The notes below the pieces were generated by a model. The model was not told the DNA's origin. It searched no databases and was given only the letters and a program-made list of their open reading frames with translations. From Lachnospiraceae bacterium (GTDB lineage: Bacteria; Bacillota; Clostridia; Lachnospirales; Lachnospiraceae): DNA of 64,000 bases. The stretch is taken from assembly GCA_017411305.1 (NCBI GenBank), contig JAFQQI010000105.1:62001-126000 (forward strand), given 5' to 3'. Both the position numbers and the translations under genes were made by a program. Within the stretch, counting starts at the first letter, position 1. The number at the start of each line of letters is the position of its first letter. Shown in pieces: positions 4,741 to 20,968 of the stretch.

Positions 4741-4788
4741 AAAAGCTGTGCAATTTTTGCTAATTTGCAAATTACACAGCCTCTTTTT
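4741..4788 (-). terminator. Rho-independent terminator after the subtilase-like gene
   Basis: A hairpin with complementary GCTGTG/CACAGC bases and a largely paired AT-rich upper stem is flanked by T-runs on both strands. It lies immediately downstream of the minus-strand subtilase-like stop codon and separates it from the esterase/GH2 operon. Confidence 0.7.
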
Positions 4789-6511
4789 AAACCCCCGCAA
4801 TCACATCAAAGGTTTCCGAAATATTCACTTGCCCGTACCCCCACTCCCGGGACGGGTATGTCATGCCGGGTGCTCTGACAGCTCCTCTGATTAAATAATT
4901 TTTCAGTTCCCGGCTTTCTACCCACTTCCGATTTCCTTCCACCACAGCCCATTGCATAAACTGGGCACAAAGTCCCGAAAGCAGTGCTGTCGCCACACCG
5001 GAGCCGGTAGATTTTCCCAAAATAGTATCAATGTCCACTCCCGGAGTGCATAGCTCCGGTTTTATATTACCCTCCCTGGTAAATCCTCGTCCTGATTCTC
5101 CTGCAAAACGGTTACCGGCATCCTGATAATATGTGGTGGTAATCACTTCCCGGACATTAGCCGGCTCTGTAAGGGTAGTATATGGCGACGGCCTTAAAAA
5201 ATAAGTCTCCGCCTGCAAAAAGGCCGTGATAGGCAGCCACATATGAAAGCTTCCCTCTGACCGGCTGTTACCGTTCATCACTGTAACCTGTATGGTCCAG
5301 ACTCCCGGCGTGGGATCTACAAACCGGAAAAAGATAAGTTCCTCACCGGAACCCTGCTCCACCAGCACATGCTCCACACGAATTTTGGTTTTTTCATACA
5401 CAAAAGAAAATTCTCTGGTTTCTCTTGCCCTAAAATCCACTCTGTCAGTAACCTCTCCCCCCGGCGAACGGATGGATATGGCATGACTGGCCGGAATATT
5501 CCCCCAAAGCTCCGCAATAAAACCCTTCTCCTCACCCACGCGGATTTCTACATTGTCCGTTGTTTCCACAAGCCCCTCTGTTGCATATCCTACATAATGA
5601 TGGGCACTGTTTCCTTCATTTCCTCCGCCAAGAACCACTGCGCGGCTTCTTCTTGTAGCTATGGTATTTAAATATCCCGCCAGTATGGAATGACCTTCAT
5701 GATCCCCCATATTAGAACCGATTCCGATACAGATTACCAGCGGTCTTACCAAGGATATTGCATAATTTTCCAAATATCTGATTGCTGCGATAATATCACT
5801 TTCCGAATAGGCCGCTGCGTCTTCCGGCAACATATAAAATTCCCGCAAATGAGGCTTTGCCTGCCTTAATTTCACCACAGCAATTTCCGCATCAGGAGCC
5901 GTTCCCAAAAAGCGAAGTCCGCCGCTTAACGCACTGCCTGCCGCTACACTGGCTAGTGTTGTTCCGTGCCCGTCCTCATCATAGCTGGGAACAATCTCAC
6001 GGGGATTTTCGCTTTGCAGTGCAGCATCAATCACCTCACGGGTATATTCCGTTCCGTACAACAATCCCTCCGGCAGTGGTCCGTCGTTAATATTCTGATC
6101 CCATATTCCCAATATCCTGGTACTGCCGTCACTGTTCCTGAACACCGCATTGTCGTACCTGATGCCGGTATCCAAAAAGCCAAGCACCACGCCCCTGCCG
6201 GTTAAGTTCAAAGGTTCTCCCTGGGCCTGCAAAATCCCTGTATTTAGCAGCGGCGTCGGGTCAAAGCTGGTCGCAAAAGTTCCCCCGCCATTCATCTGCA
6301 TCAACCCATAAACCTTCGGAATAGACCTGTAAGTAAAATTTCTGATGCTTAAGGGCTCTACTTCTGTCCTGTTAATATAAGTAATACCAAGATTAGTATC
6401 AATCGGCTGGAATACATAGTCCTCCACAACCGTATCAAGCCCCTCCGGCTGGCTGTAATCCGAAAGTATATCAATATAATCATCTGAGGCAATCTTTTCT
6501 CTATCCGTCAT
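4787..6511 (-). CDS. Subtilisin-family (S8) protein, catalytic serine replaced: probable pseudoprotease
   Basis: S8 subtilase fold related to the clostridial Csp-type proteins, 574 residues without a signal peptide. The catalytic Asp (Asp114 in VVLGFLDTGI) and His (His182 in DEDGHGTTLAS) are intact and the oxyanion-region Asn is present in VVLGGGNEGN. At the serine block the usual TGTSxAAA is replaced by TGSGVATA: the codon at 4997-4999 in the serine position is GGT (Gly505), with a serine one residue earlier (Ser504). Csp proteins process or regulate the spore germination protease SleC in clostridia, and some members (CspA, CspC) are inactive pseudoproteases; a comparable role here is inference only. 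The insertion at about residues 300-450 between the Asn and Ser blocks is typical of this clade. The gene follows the long palindrome and ends at a terminator. Confidence 0.85.
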   Translation of the reverse strand: MTDREKIASDDYIDILSDYSQPEGLDTVVEDYVFQPIDTNLGITYINRTEVEPLSIRNFTYRSIPKVYGLMQMNGGGTFATSFDPTPLLNTGILQAQGEPLNLTGRGVVLGFLDTGIRYDNAVFRNSDGSTRILGIWDQNINDGPLPEGLLYGTEYTREVIDAALQSENPREIVPSYDEDGHGTTLASVAAGSALSGGLRFLGTAPDAEIAVVKLRQAKPHLREFYMLPEDAAAYSESDIIAAIRYLENYAISLVRPLVICIGIGSNMGDHEGHSILAGYLNTIATRRSRAVVLGGGNEGNSAHHYVGYATEGLVETTDNVEIRVGEEKGFIAELWGNIPASHAISIRSPGGEVTDRVDFRARETREFSFVYEKTKIRVEHVLVEQGSGEELIFFRFVDPTPGVWTIQVTVMNGNSRSEGSFHMWLPITAFLQAETYFLRPSPYTTLTEPANVREVITTTYYQDAGNRFAGESGRGFTREGNIKPELCTPGVDIDTILGKSTGSGVATALLSGLCAQFMQWAVVEGNRKWVESRELKNYLIRGAVRAPGMTYPSREWGYGQVNISETFDVIAGV

Positions 6512-6560: not shown

Positions 6561-7060
6561 CACCGAAAGCGTCATTGCAGGAAAGCACTATTAATTTATT
6601 ACGTTACCATCGCATAAAGTTTCTTTCAAAGCATATATCATCTTTCGGGATTTTTTGAACCCGCCCTTTTCATATGCTTATTAACTGCCCGTCGTAAAAC
6701 TTAAAGCCGACAGGCAATAAACAGTTTTATAAAGCCTTATGAAACTTTTTGTAAAAAATCAACCGGCACACTTTAAAAGATGTACAGGCCATTTCAACTG
6801 TCCGAAGCGGAGCAAGTTTTGAAATGGCCTGTTTATATCATCTTTAAAGTGTAGCCGGTTAGATTTTTCTTAAAAAGTTTTGTAGGCTTTAAAACTGTTA
6901 TTGCCGCGGCTTTTCAAACAATTACTTCCGGGCAGTGCATTTATGAAAAGGGCGTTTCTAAAAAATCCTACGAAAGATAATAAAATGCTTTTTGAAAGAA
7001 TGCTTTATGCTTGGTAACGCACTAAGCAAATGACGCCTTTCCTGCAATGACGCTTTCGTG
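6561..7060. repeat. Long palindromic element, copy 1 (500 bp)
   Basis: The whole gap between the clpX-like stop codon and the subtilase start is one imperfect palindrome. Outer arms: 6561-6585 is the reverse complement of 7036-7060 with only minor differences. The central core 6785-6831 has complementary CAGGCCATTTCA and TGAAATGGCCTG around a loop carrying TCCGAAGCGGA. No ORF of note is present. About 350 bp, including the core, recur in the same orientation at 19690-20040. The right arm ends exactly at base 7060, the clpX-like stop codon being 7061-7063. No T-run follows the hairpin on the transcribed strand, so it is not an ordinary terminator. I do not recognise the family. Confidence 0.85.
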
Positions 7061-8668
7061 TTAGTTGCTTTCGATGAGATTTAAGTCATCGGGGTTTGTT
7101 GCCTCGATATTACGAATATCAATGACCGGACCTCCCGTACCCTCAATGTACTCTCTGGTAATGGTTACTCTTCCGATATTGTCATCCTTTGGAATTTCAT
7201 ACATAATATCCAGCATAAACTCTTCAATGATGGCACGAAGAGCTCTGGCTCCGATTTCTTTCTTCATAGCCTTTCCGGCAATTGCTTCAAGGGCACCGTC
7301 ATCAAATTCCAGCTTTACCTCATCTAATTCAAGAAGCTTCTGATACTGCTTCAAAATAGCATTCTTAGGCTCCTTCAAAATCTTTATCATCATTTCTTTG
7401 CTGAGTGCTTCCAGTGTATACACAACAGGAAGACGTCCCAGAAATTCGGGAATCATACCAAACTTCTTTAAGTCTTCGATGGTAACCTGACTTAAAATAT
7501 TCTTCTCTTTGTCAAATTTATCCTTTAGTTCTGCATTAAAGCCAATGGAAGTCTGTTTCCGCAGTCTCTGCTTGATAATTTCCTCAAGCTCCGGGAAAGC
7601 ACCGCCGCAGATAAAGAGAATGTTTCTGGTATTGATGGTAGCAAGGGGTACCATTGCATTTTTGCTGTTGGCCCCTACCGGTACCTCTACCTCTGCACCT
7701 TCTAATAAGCGCAGCATTCCCTGCTGTACACTTTCTCCGCTGACATCACGGTTGGTGGTATTTTTCTTCTTGGCGATTTTATCAATTTCATCAATAAAAA
7801 TAATACCGCGTTCTGCTTTTTCCACATCATTGTCGGCTGCTGCCAAAAGCTTAGAAACCACACTTTCGATATCATCACCGATATAGCCGGCTTCCGTCAG
7901 GGAAGTAGCATCCGTAATGGCTAAAGGCACATCAAGCAGCTTTGCCAATGTTTTCACCAGATAGGTTTTCCCGCAGCCGGTAGGTCCTATCATCAGCATA
8001 TTGGATTTTTCAATTTCGATTTCATCCATGGTTCCCGTAGCCACACGCTTATAATGATTATAAACTGCAACGGAAATCACCTTTTTCGCATGCTCCTGCC
8101 CGATGACATAGTCATCCAGCTTTGCTTTTATTTTATGCGGAGAAGGAATCTTTTTGATATCCAAAACCGGCTCGTTTGCTTTGTTTTCTTTTTTCTTTTT
8201 CAGCTTCTGCTTATTGGGAATACCTCCCTCACCCTGCAAATCGGAAATATTCACAAAACGAATCTGGGGAAAGCCTTTATTTCCCATATCCTTGCCGAAA
8301 TCGCCCATAAGGGAGGGGTTCCCTAACATTCCCTGGTAGTCAAACTGACTGACTGTATCCATGGTCTTATGCATACAATCATTGCATACACTGATGTTAT
8401 TGGGAAGCTTAAACATTTTCCCTGTTTTGCTTTCCGGTCTGCGGCAGATAAAGCAAACATCTTCATATTCGCTTTCCTTTTCGCCCGTTTCATCCGTTAT
8501 ATCTTTTTTGTCTGCCTGTTCCTGCTCTGCAACTGTCGGTAGCTCTTCCGTATCTGCAGATATTTCAGAAGCACTTTCCTTATTGACAGCTTCCGGTCTT
8601 TTGGATATGCTTTCCACTTCTTTAAAGTCTTCTGTCATTTCCCCGTCTCTTTTATCAAAATCTGACAT
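7061..8668 (-). CDS. clpX: ClpX-like AAA+ unfoldase with zinc-binding domain
   Basis: ATP-dependent unfoldase that feeds substrates to the ClpP peptidase. The C4 zinc domain has Cys72, Cys75, Cys95 and Cys98 (CFICRRPE and CNDCMHKT). The AAA+ core follows: Walker A GPTGCGKT at 228-235, pore loop GYIG at 261-264, Walker B IIFIDEID at 289-296, and an SIGF loop near 374-377 matching the ClpP-docking IGF loop. At 535 residues it is over 100 longer than typical ClpX (about 420), owing to an acidic 70-residue N-terminal extension and a Lys-rich linker at 150-170. GGAGG precedes the ATG at 8668. It lies 11 bases after the NlpC/P60 gene, so co-transcription is likely. It could be a clade-specific ClpX paralogue rather than the housekeeping copy. 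Confidence 0.9.
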   Translation of the reverse strand: MSDFDKRDGEMTEDFKEVESISKRPEAVNKESASEISADTEELPTVAEQEQADKKDITDETGEKESEYEDVCFICRRPESKTGKMFKLPNNISVCNDCMHKTMDTVSQFDYQGMLGNPSLMGDFGKDMGNKGFPQIRFVNISDLQGEGGIPNKQKLKKKKENKANEPVLDIKKIPSPHKIKAKLDDYVIGQEHAKKVISVAVYNHYKRVATGTMDEIEIEKSNMLMIGPTGCGKTYLVKTLAKLLDVPLAITDATSLTEAGYIGDDIESVVSKLLAAADNDVEKAERGIIFIDEIDKIAKKKNTTNRDVSGESVQQGMLRLLEGAEVEVPVGANSKNAMVPLATINTRNILFICGGAFPELEEIIKQRLRKQTSIGFNAELKDKFDKEKNILSQVTIEDLKKFGMIPEFLGRLPVVYTLEALSKEMMIKILKEPKNAILKQYQKLLELDEVKLEFDDGALEAIAGKAMKKEIGARALRAIIEEFMLDIMYEIPKDDNIGRVTITREYIEGTGGPVIDIRNIEATNPDDLNLIESN

Positions 8669-18027: not shown

Positions 18028-19578
18028 TTAAAGTGATTTTACAATTAAAATCCTATCCCCCGGCTTTACCTCTTCCGAACTGAGCTGATTGGTTTCCATC
18101 AATGCAGATACCGGTACATAGTAGCGTTTTCCGATATCCCACAGACTCTCGCCGTCACGTACCATGTAAACTGCAATTCCCGGAAGTTCTGCCATCTTTT
18201 CCGAATCAAGCTGTGCGACTTCAATTTCCTCCACAATTTTTTCCTTGATATTTTTGTAAACGTTACCGCCAAAAAAGAGTACACATTTTACGTCGATTTC
18301 AGAGCCGTCAAGCAGTAATACCGTTATCTGCTCTACGTCAGTCCGAAGCACATAAGTACAATCTTTATCCACTCCATCTGCTTCCAACATATAGCTAAAC
18401 GGAATGTTTTCCTTCATCATACCATACTTTTCTTCCTCATCCGCGCTTTCATATAATAACTGCAAGTTCACTACACCGCTTATCTCAATTCCTTCTTCCA
18501 TAACAGCCTGCTCAATAATCTGAACTCTCGCAGCGGTATGCAAAATTCTGACAATATGACTTTCATCCAACTTAAAATGTTCTGCAAGCTTCATCTTTCC
18601 TGCTGCTTTTGTCAAGAGCCTGCGGAAAGAAGCTTCTTTCTCCGAAACCGATACCTCTTTCGTCACTCCGTAAACATCACTGAGCAAGGAAAGCCTTTCC
18701 TCCTCATACGCACAAATCACAAGATTCAGGCACAGTTCAAAAGTAATAACCCTTTCTTCTCCGTCAAAATCAGATTGTACCGACACTTCCCTGCACTCCG
18801 GTACAAAACGGATTTCCGGAATCATACCTTCCTCAGCACCCATGCAATCAATCGTTCCCGCAAAAGGTATCACCGTCTCATAATGACATATATCATCTTC
18901 TTCCCCTTCTCCTCTGTAAAGGAAAAAAGCTCTGATTTCTCCCTGTGCGGTAATTTTATCGGAAAGAATCTTAAACTCCACGTTGCAAGGCATCACATCC
19001 CACCATATCAGAGACAAAATATTGGGAAAGCTGCCGGGAATCTCTACTTCCTCTTTCACACGCAGAATATCCTTCTTACAAATTTTCATGGCGGCAATAT
19101 CTAAATTCTTTTTCCTGAATTCCACCGCCTCGCTGTTTTCCAAATCCACTGCCGTTTCTTCATCCCTGATTTCTTCGCAATGAGCTTTCAGCATCACCAA
19201 GGATTGCACACTGAATTTTCGGGAATTGATTAATCCGACCGTCAAGTCTTCAATGTCCCAGTCTACAGAAACCGAATCTCCTGTTTCTACTCCCTCCATG
19301 TAAATCTGCTCTTCAAAAGGAATATTACCCTCCATTGTGGCAACATCTCCTTTCTTATCCTCGGTTAAGTACAAAATCTTAAACTGCAGTCTTCCTTTTA
19401 CACTCACATGGTCATCTGATACCTTCACTTCATCTATGACCACATTTCCTCTATCCATAATCAGCTGATACGCATCAGGCTTGGAATCGGAAATATTTAC
19501 ATCATCCTCCAGCGTTATCTGTGCGGACGCCTTGCATTTTTGGCAATCCATATGTATATTCCGCTTTACTAATTCCAC
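18028..19578 (-). CDS. sipL: SipL-like spore morphogenesis protein (DUF3794/SPOCS repeats + LysM)
   Basis: In Clostridioides, SipL binds SpoIVA and drives coat assembly around the forespore. This protein has repeated SPOCS (DUF3794) domains over about residues 20-430 and a C-terminal LysM domain (YMVRDGESLWDIGKRYYV, ending VKPGDRILIV). At 516 residues it matches the family. The start is set at GTG 19578 because GGAGG (19586-19590) is 7 bases upstream; the ATG at 19584 is too close to that site. It is flanked downstream by the terminator of the convergent gene and upstream by palindrome copy 2. Confidence 0.88.
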   Translation of the reverse strand: MELVKRNIHMDCQKCKASAQITLEDDVNISDSKPDAYQLIMDRGNVVIDEVKVSDDHVSVKGRLQFKILYLTEDKKGDVATMEGNIPFEEQIYMEGVETGDSVSVDWDIEDLTVGLINSRKFSVQSLVMLKAHCEEIRDEETAVDLENSEAVEFRKKNLDIAAMKICKKDILRVKEEVEIPGSFPNILSLIWWDVMPCNVEFKILSDKITAQGEIRAFFLYRGEGEEDDICHYETVIPFAGTIDCMGAEEGMIPEIRFVPECREVSVQSDFDGEERVITFELCLNLVICAYEEERLSLLSDVYGVTKEVSVSEKEASFRRLLTKAAGKMKLAEHFKLDESHIVRILHTAARVQIIEQAVMEEGIEISGVVNLQLLYESADEEEKYGMMKENIPFSYMLEADGVDKDCTYVLRTDVEQITVLLLDGSEIDVKCVLFFGGNVYKNIKEKIVEEIEVAQLDSEKMAELPGIAVYMVRDGESLWDIGKRYYVPVSALMETNQLSSEEVKPGDRILIVKSL

Positions 19579-19657
19579 AAACATACCTCCCGGCGTGTAC
19601 TTATTCCTAATATATGACACCGGAATCCGCTTTATTACTCCCTTCTCTTACACTCCA

Positions 19658-20068
19658 TAAGAATCCGGACTTTTCGGAACCGTTCCCTTCACGCACAGTT
19701 GCAGAAAAATTCTCTTTCAAAGCATATACAGTCTTTGGAGATTTTTTGAACCCGTCCTTTTCATATGTCTATTAGTTGCCCGTCATAAAACTCGAAGCAG
19801 ACAGGCAGAAAGTAGGATATATAAGCCTTTTGAAACTTTTTGTAAAAAATCAACCGGCACACTTTAAAAGATGTACAGGCCATTTCAACTGTCCGAAGCG
19901 GAGCAAGTTTTGAAATGGCCTGTTAATATCATCTTTAAAGTGTAGCCGGTTAGATTTTTCTTAAAAAGTTTCATAGGCTCATATCCTATTTCTGCCGCAG
20001 CTTCTCAAACAGTTACTTCCGGGCAACACATCTATGAAAAGAACGGTTCTGAAAAGTCCGGATTCTTA
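19658..20068. repeat. Long palindromic element, copy 2 (411 bp)
   Basis: It fills most of the gap between pyrD and sipL. Outer arms: 19658-19685 pairs with 20041-20068 at 27 of 28 positions, and the right arm includes the pyrD stop codon (20066-20068). The core 19876-19922 is the same as in copy 1 (6785-6831), in the same orientation. Arm segments that differ from copy 1 (for example 19813-19827 with 19976-19988) stay complementary to each other. The left arm carries about 50 extra bases near 19686-19738 without a partner. No ORF is present. I do not recognise the family. Confidence 0.85.
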
Positions 20069-20968
20069 CTCTACTGCTCCAATCAGTTCATTAATGTCCT
20101 GCACATTATATTTCTGCATATATTCCTCAATCCCCCGAACCACTTCCACGGTCGTATAAGGATTCACAAAATTCATAGCTCCTACAGCCACAGCCGTAGC
20201 TCCTGCCAGCATAAATTCAATTGCATCCTCAGCATTTGCAATGCCGCCCATTCCGATTACGGGAATCTTTACCGCATGGGACGCCTGATAAACCATACGC
20301 ACTGCCACAGGCTTAATGGCAGGTCCGGACATACCGCCGGTTTTGTTTGCCAGGGCAAAGCATCTCTTATGAATATCAATCTTCATTCCTGTCAAAGTAT
20401 TAATCAAAGAAATAGCATCTGCGCCTGCTGCTTCTGCTGCTTTTGCCATCTCTGTAATGTCTGTTACATTGGGGCTAAGCTTCATAATCACAGGTTGCTT
20501 TGCTTTCTTTTTAATCTGTGAAGTAATATCATAAAGACAATCAGCTTTCTGTCCAAAGGCAATGGCACCTTCTTTTACGTTCGGGCAGGAAACATTGATT
20601 TCCAACATATCTACCGGGTAATCACCTAATTTTTCCACAACTGCCAAATAGTCTTCTACCGTTTTTCCGCAAACATTAACAATGATTTTCGTATCATACT
20701 GCTTTAAGAAAGGAATATCCCTTTCCACAAACACATCAATACCGGGATTCTGAAGTCCGATTGCATTCAGCATACCGCCATAGGTTTCTGCCACTCTGGG
20801 AGTCGGATTGCCGGGCCAGGGCACGTTTGCTACGCCTTTGGTCACTACGGCACCAAGCTGATTCAAATCTACAAATTCTCCGTATTCCATACCGGAGCCA
20901 AAGGTTCCTGAGGCTGTCATAACCGGATTTTTAAATTCCACGCCTGCAATTGTTACTTTTGTATTCAT
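20066..20968 (-). CDS. pyrD: Dihydroorotate dehydrogenase, catalytic subunit (class 1B)
   Basis: FMN enzyme oxidising dihydroorotate to orotate in pyrimidine synthesis. In class 1B it works with the PyrK electron-transfer subunit and NAD+. FMN and substrate motifs are visible: TASGTFGSG, NAIGLQNPG, the catalytic Cys128 in EINVSCPNV, IMKLSPNVTD and GMGGIANAEDAIEFMLAGA. Length is 300 residues. The start overlaps the upstream pyrC-pyrK stop by 4 bases (ATGA), so synthesis of both subunits is coupled. Its stop codon lies inside the right arm of the long palindrome. Confidence 0.96.
   Translation of the reverse strand: MNTKVTIAGVEFKNPVMTASGTFGSGMEYGEFVDLNQLGAVVTKGVANVPWPGNPTPRVAETYGGMLNAIGLQNPGIDVFVERDIPFLKQYDTKIIVNVCGKTVEDYLAVVEKLGDYPVDMLEINVSCPNVKEGAIAFGQKADCLYDITSQIKKKAKQPVIMKLSPNVTDITEMAKAAEAAGADAISLINTLTGMKIDIHKRCFALANKTGGMSGPAIKPVAVRMVYQASHAVKIPVIGMGGIANAEDAIEFMLAGATAVAVGAMNFVNPYTTVEVVRGIEEYMQKYNVQDINELIGAVE

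Follow-up and report, generated by a model that had tools for sequence, protein, structure and literature searches.

The window (the whole 64-kb stretch of DNA that was analyzed) contains two copies of a long palindromic repeat that belongs to a larger family. The family is real and unusual, and open-licence literature searches, by title or by the start of the abstract, revealed no paper that describes such an element. Its members lie in intergenic spacers, often directly behind stop codons. Judged by sequence, the family is characterized by many copies, occupied and empty sites in related species, a conserved tip, conserved asymmetric joints between freely varying helices, interiors that are flipped at some shared sites, and inverted duplicates of host DNA in the outer arms of some copies. 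We consider with moderate confidence that the palindromes represent a DNA foldback (hairpin) element, approximately 400-500 bp long, non-autonomous and probably mobile, whose arms would be made and extended by template switching.

Self-alignment places copy 1, a long imperfect palindrome of 495 bp, at 6564-7058 (positions 1504-1998 of locus L001), and copy 2, likewise long and imperfect, is at 19658-20068. Both are thus found where the initial annotation had put them (6561-7060 and 19658-20068). Folded as single-stranded DNA, copy 1 has a free energy of -159.2 kcal/mol (z = -19.3) and copy 2 of -115.4 kcal/mol (z = -18.9); in each case 0 of 100 shuffles were equal or better. Self-complementarity scores are 224 for copy 1 and 122 for copy 2, with a median of 14.6 for 196 random 500-bp stretches of the window, the top three of which score 27.9, 48.4 and 48.4. 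The two random scores of 48.4 are well above the others; a repeat search of the window at lengths of at least 28 bp displayed no inverted pairs besides the known palindromes. There is no long reading frame within the copies. The features are as follows.

4787-6511, minus strand: Peptidase_S8 gene, downstream of copy 1 in the direction of transcription
6564-7058, unstranded: copy 1, whole palindrome (self-alignment; fold z -19.3)
6642-6659, plus strand: copy 1, outer asymmetric joint, left side (sequence, self-alignment)
6711-6918, plus strand: copy 1, core in the 32-row alignment (core alignment)
6799-6819, plus strand: copy 1, tip motif TGTCCGAAGCGGAGCAAGTTT, the reverse complement of the scanned tip (sequence, tip scans)
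6955-6976, plus strand: copy 1, outer asymmetric joint, right side, with extra unpaired bases (sequence, self-alignment)
7061-8668, minus strand: ClpX-like AAA protein gene, whose stop codon is 3 bp from the end of copy 1
18028-19620, minus strand: SipL/LysM gene, downstream of copy 2 in the direction of transcription
19658-20068, unstranded: copy 2, whole palindrome, which takes in the stop codon of the pyrD-like gene (fold, arm complementarity)
19658-19691, plus strand: copy 2, additional outer left arm, which matches 20035-20068 in inverted sense more closely than 19742-19765 does
19692-19741, plus strand: copy 2, left-arm segment that has no counterpart in the right arm (fold, self-complementarity)
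19802-20009, plus strand: copy 2, core in the alignment (core alignment)
19890-19910, plus strand: copy 2, tip motif (sequence)
20066-20968, minus strand: dihydroorotate dehydrogenase (pyrD-like) gene, which ends in copy 2

Alignment of the two copies spans 356 columns, with 309 matches, 42 mismatches and 5 gap columns, in agreement with the approximately 350 bp of common sequence first proposed. Where the arms differ pairing is kept, also as proposed: a block switches between ACAGTTTTA and TAGGATAT, and the opposite arm compensates. The outer arms of copy 2 (19658-19691 and 20035-20068) are 91% complementary (31/34), and the approximately 50 bp immediately inside the left one (19692-19741) have no partner on the right. 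The right arm at 20035-20068 has two inverted partners, the regular one at 19742-19765 and the better one at 19658-19691.

Read inward from its outer arms, which are variable, the element has an asymmetric joint that is conserved (CTTTCG..GGATTTTTT-GAA), then a short helix that varies, additional joints, helices whose sequence varies, and finally a tip that is highly conserved. Palindrome lengths range from approximately 310 to 510 bp and the ends are variable. Conservation peaks at the center; the ends differ between copies and show no shared terminal inverted repeats. Outer arms display strong differences between copies. In genome G022 the tip region is identical in five aligned rows and divergence grows outward, but the outer arms of L021, L031 and L041 can still be aligned, and the view that every copy has outer arms entirely of its own was abandoned.

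In the host genome, a metagenome-assembled genome (MAG) that is 82.6% complete, a 500-bp query gave 15 matches at nine distinct loci, the other six being second-strand matches of the same palindromes. Ten of the 37 same-genus genomes match the 166-bp core, in some cases at five to nine places. The matches of G013 and G019, two of the ten, are only weak, and both loci of G019 lie at contig ends, where no palindrome is readable. Thus the initial annotation, which spoke of a pair of palindromes, was right about the two copies but set their number too low, and the search with the core that it recommended, of the genome and its relatives, did find further copies. A second subfamily was reached via the tip (L144, L162, L177 and others), so that counts based on the core can be minima. 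Some contigs end inside or beside the element (e.g., L028, L038, L045, L046, L041 and L056). L141, L146 and L153 keep the left arm and the tip hairpin, with much of the right arm gone; in L141 a T-run closes the tip hairpin, which could serve as a terminator. Nothing with the tip pattern was found in viral contigs, and plasmids and phages, searched with the core query only, gave no match to the 166-bp core.

The tip is rare and patchy. An exact scan for the 19-base tip in a collection of 84,980 genomes yielded 71 matches in 70 stretches. Sixty-eight of the 71 could be scored, and 54 of these are at hairpins above 99% of 1400 same-locus control positions and 14 are not. Passing tips, with different arms, are found in Clostridium celatum, Cellulosilyticum ruminicola, a Clostridium sp. 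MAG, Proteiniphilum and Flavobacterium, and five passing copies, also with different arms, are present in a Desulfuromonadaceae MAG; it should be noted that several passing tips from outside the genus score lower than the best of the 1400 controls (32.3). Tip-bearing hairpins recur in Bacteroidota. Seven of the 14 failing tips are in unrelated phyla and appear chance-like, five are in the Clostridia MAG JAAYRB (G044), whose other copies pass, one (L151, Bacteroidales) is just under the cut-off, and one (L186) is in a Lachnospiraceae MAG. Some tips of JAAYRB are paired approximately 130-220 bp apart, e.g., at 1064 and 1270 of L155. Within the bacterial family, three of 397 sampled genomes carry the tip at two or fewer mismatches: the host genome, a second genome in which the tip sits on a hairpin (L223), and a third in which it does not (L224).

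Positions relative to genes were compared for 41 palindromes. Twenty-eight of the 47 sides that face a gene 3′ end are 16 bp or less from the stop codon, and one of the 30 sides that face a 5′ end is 16 bp or less from the nearest mechanically predicted ORF start. For the 28 palindromes scoring at least 150, the corresponding numbers within 16 bp are 21 of 34 3′-facing versus 1 of 21 5′-facing sides. The core has the same orientation as the abutting gene in 8 and the opposite orientation in 9 of 17 scorable non-convergent copies, and many copies sit at convergent-gene sites.

Occupied and empty sites are both found. At the clpX site (30 loci read, 37 genomes matched) the element is present in two loci, G000 and G016, with opposite core orientations, and the other 28 are empty. 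The pyrD site is occupied in three of 30 loci (G000, G012 and G025) and empty in 27. At the L050 site, where 16 loci were read from 30 retrieved, one has a long palindrome and 15 do not. Insertion polymorphism between relatives is therefore present (2/30 clpX and 3/30 pyrD loci occupied), in a comparison of different species that also allows for loss. Comparison of flanking genes showed further sites common to several genomes.

Other repeats are found at some of these places. In the host genome, the spacer that separates the L050-gene ortholog from tRNA-Trp (L235) has a 78-bp imperfect palindrome without the conserved tip, in the same place as the long element in G016. Directly behind pyrD and before a sipL-like gene, G018 (L105) displays a tandem-like array of approximately 40-bp units (AATAAGCTGATTTG..AAAGCAAG..). 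An inverted repeat surrounds a putative sipL promoter at 19583-19640 of the window (CCTCCCTG...CATACATT...CAGGGAGGTATTTTT) and is present in many of the 30 pyrD loci (most of L093-L122), including element-free ones.

In a weakly supported tree of the cores (5 of 46 rows unorientable, 20 of 42 inner branches open, and long branches that may mislead), copies of one site split into different groups (clpX, site D) and the four G022 rows are grouped together. Such a pattern would fit transposition and exchange between copies alike.

The alignment of the core has 32 rows, from 40 located cores, and 56 predicted pairs. Both-sided changes are found in 43 of the 56. Some pairs switch wholesale: columns 77/149 are A:U in 16 rows and G:C in 16, and columns 71/154 are U:A in 17 and C:G in 15. 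These switches occur without intermediates. The early claim of compensatory change along a very long hairpin is thus upheld, but not as proof of selection on RNA. Covariation is standard evidence for functional RNA, and a selected RNA should favor G:U on its own strand. Mismatches in the whole arms, counted over 41 palindromes with the constant joints included, are symmetric between strands, with 155 of G:U type versus 144 of A:C type by core strand (38 copies; p = 0.56) and 96 versus 92 by the strand of the abutting gene (20 copies; p = 0.83). In the core, 51 pairs are Watson-Crick in 75% or more of their cells, and in these G:U is counted 32 times and A:C 33 times. Together with the mixed gene orientation (8/9), this symmetry speaks against the suggestion that compensation reflects selection on RNA, and the arm sequences fit a matching kept by copying at the DNA level rather than by a working RNA.

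The closest orthologs, L022 and L023, have flanks that are 96% and 94% identical over aligned bases. Among their 219 pairs, 19 show one-sided changes between paired and unpaired, two show both-sided changes with the pair kept, and one is unpaired in both. Compensated changes therefore amount to 2 of 22 changed pairs, with 0.65 double changes expected by chance, and the 19 one-sided versus 2 compensated changes are a further argument against RNA selection. At site G, the interior is inverted between L033 and L042, and the inverted comparison is the better one (131 versus 105 unchanged pairs). In the inverted sense, 150 pairs display 17 one-sided changes and two both-sided changes without the pair kept, i.e., 0 of 19 compensated. 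Core orientation is the same at four of eight sites common to genomes (pyrD, D, F and H) and opposite at the other four (clpX, B, C and G). Because so few changes are compensated in the closest orthologs, complementarity is not renewed continuously; renewal must be episodic or take place when a copy forms. This rarity is the weakest point of the template-switch reading.

Several copies include inverted duplicates of host DNA. In G025 the opposite end of the element repeats the last pyrD codons (GTGCAGGAGTAG) in inverted form, with some mismatches. The PyrD C-terminus GGVQE is common to G025 and the element-free relative G021, and at the empty site of G021 approximately 10 bp separate the stop codon from the shared downstream sequence, with no hairpin able to supply the G025 arms. 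The L005 palindrome overlaps by 13 bp a gene for a protein with a C-terminal AraC-family helix-turn-helix domain, and L050 has a terminator-like hairpin and T-run at both ends, in inverted orientation. These duplicates and the doubled partner in copy 2 are the footprints expected of template switching, which homogenizes arms and inverts spacers (PMC8604942) and creates hairpins in one step (PMC8794818).

In the mechanism proposed here, template switching in the course of replication or repair would make arm complementarity, and at times renew it, at the DNA level. Such switching would copy one arm, and sometimes neighboring host DNA, onto the other, and could flip the interior. Growth of the arms would halt at sequence protected by selection, which would explain both the close fit to stop codons and the distance from starts. 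New sites may be reached by transposition or ectopic recombination, via a putative enzyme that recognizes the folded tip and joints, and exchange between copies may keep cores alike within a genome. The asymmetric joints persist even though arm copying should erase them, so that some selection on the folded strand is needed and something must recognize joints and tip. This recognition is the main gap in the template-switch explanation. No mobilizing enzyme, target duplication or fixed ends were found. Where SbcCD is active, long palindromes are unstable. An absence of SbcD is disfavored as an explanation for their survival, since all ten carriers have an SbcD match above the cut-off; 36 of the 37 genomes have a match, 34 of them above the cut-off.

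Since joints and tip are conserved, the suggestion of cruciform DNA in the initial annotation stays in play. The palindromes could be a host DNA site that serves the cell as a cruciform or a folded strand, for instance in chromosome organization or bidirectional termination, with selection on the DNA hairpin pairing the arms. The strand symmetry of the mismatches, the conserved joints and tip, and the many convergent-gene sites would suit such a role. However, the patchy distribution (10/37 genus genomes, and 3/397 family genomes with the tip, one without a hairpin) and sites that are not fixed between species do not, and we regard a host site as unlikely.

A very long structured RNA, either a 3′ UTR or an independent transcript, with helices under compensatory selection and protein-bound joints and tip, would account for the both-sided changes, the conserved asymmetric joints and tip, and the frequent location behind stop codons. 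It could also draw on the count over all 56 pairs, where G:U exceeds A:C (81 versus 36). Two pairs at the tip, 102/117 and 104/115, which carry a conserved G:U, account for 41 of the extra G:U cells, and this excess makes a strand-specific fold of the tip possible. Against an RNA, over the whole arms and in the well-paired core columns G:U-type and A:C-type mismatches are about equal, and gene orientation is mixed. In a positive control with terminator-like hairpins, G:U to A:C was 14:5 (by setting 17:10, 25:12, 14:9 and 14:5), which is weak and suggestive only; the argument against RNA thus rests on the symmetry itself and on orientation. Neither the window nor five element loci gave any match at the Rfam gathering score, consistent with the early remark that no named element has this design. 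A permissive search gave microRNA-precursor matches that are only sub-threshold, far below the cut-offs, in copy 1 only and on both strands. A known RNA family is disfavored on both counts, and the RNA reading as a whole is disfavored by these sequence comparisons and is quite improbable.

An ordinary miniature inverted repeat transposable element (MITE), i.e., a remnant left by deletion within a transposon whose ends are long inverted repeats, and moved by the transposase of that transposon, would also form a repeat family with empty sites and copies without a long reading frame. Here, however, the middle is conserved and not the ends, and no full-length parent is present among the loci read. 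No target-site duplication was seen by eye at copy ends, whose boundaries are too uncertain to exclude one. We consider this origin very unlikely. A Y1 transposase as mover is also disfavored: matches to PF01797 are found in only 5 of 10 carriers (absent from G013, G021, G022, G023 and G025) versus 16 of 27 non-carriers, counts that come from incomplete MAGs.

That the outer arms are older terminators or hairpins with a shorter element inserted in the loop is highly improbable, since an ordinary terminator at the empty clpX site in several species, and terminator-like hairpins that adjoin or lie within the L002, L047, L050 and L059 palindromes, are outweighed by the empty pyrD site of G021, which has no hairpin able to supply the G025 arms, by arms that enter coding ends, and by outer arms longer than the usual terminator stem.

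The family may represent, as we propose tentatively, a cross-phylum class of mobile DNA that is recognized by its folded hairpin tip and joints rather than its ends, that turns the surroundings of an insertion into palindrome up to the next selected sequence, and that displays RNA-like covariation without RNA. Compensatory differences abound in this large natural family, yet the symmetry between strands, the inverted interiors and the inverted duplicates of host DNA favor copying of DNA as their source. The family is thus a test case for covariation-based discovery of RNA and a natural system for bacterial template switching. Survival of near-palindromes of 450-500 bp in SbcD-encoding genomes, and a tip common to several phyla, can both be tested.

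Among known systems, REP/REPIN sequences and their RAYT (a Y1 enzyme of IS200/IS605 type) are similar in that they are repeated, palindromic, extragenic and non-coding, and are thought to move as a folded strand (PMC3733652). REPs measure 20-40 bp with a GTAG (or CGTC) end tag (PMC3733652), whereas the palindromes described here are approximately 310-510 bp with variable ends and without that size and tag, and 5 of 10 carriers have no Y1 match. YPAL/RU-2 of Yersinia is also an intergenic palindromic repeat; it is 168 bp, targets regions of dyad symmetry and has target duplications of 3-26 bp (PMC2229807), whereas the element here is longer and no duplication was seen at its ends. Bacterial MITEs such as RUP and Correia, which are shorter than 200 bp, end in inverted repeats and have duplicated targets (PMC2229807), share a non-autonomous nature, inverted repeats and insertion polymorphism with the present family, which differs in its conserved center, varying ends and lack of conserved terminal inverted repeats. 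Template-switch quasipalindromes show homogenization of arms and inversion of spacers (PMC8604942); the present family has inverted interiors at some shared sites and inverted host duplicates, but few compensated changes in its closest orthologs. Quasipalindromes are also short and scattered, whereas the element here is large, occurs in many copies and keeps its joints and tip conserved. The attC sites of integrons are approximately 60-140 bp, have conserved outer boxes, belong to integrase-linked cassette arrays, are located behind a stop codon, and are conserved more in structure than in sequence, with unpaired bases that matter. The palindromes resemble them in structure over sequence and in position behind stop codons, and differ in that their outer ends vary.
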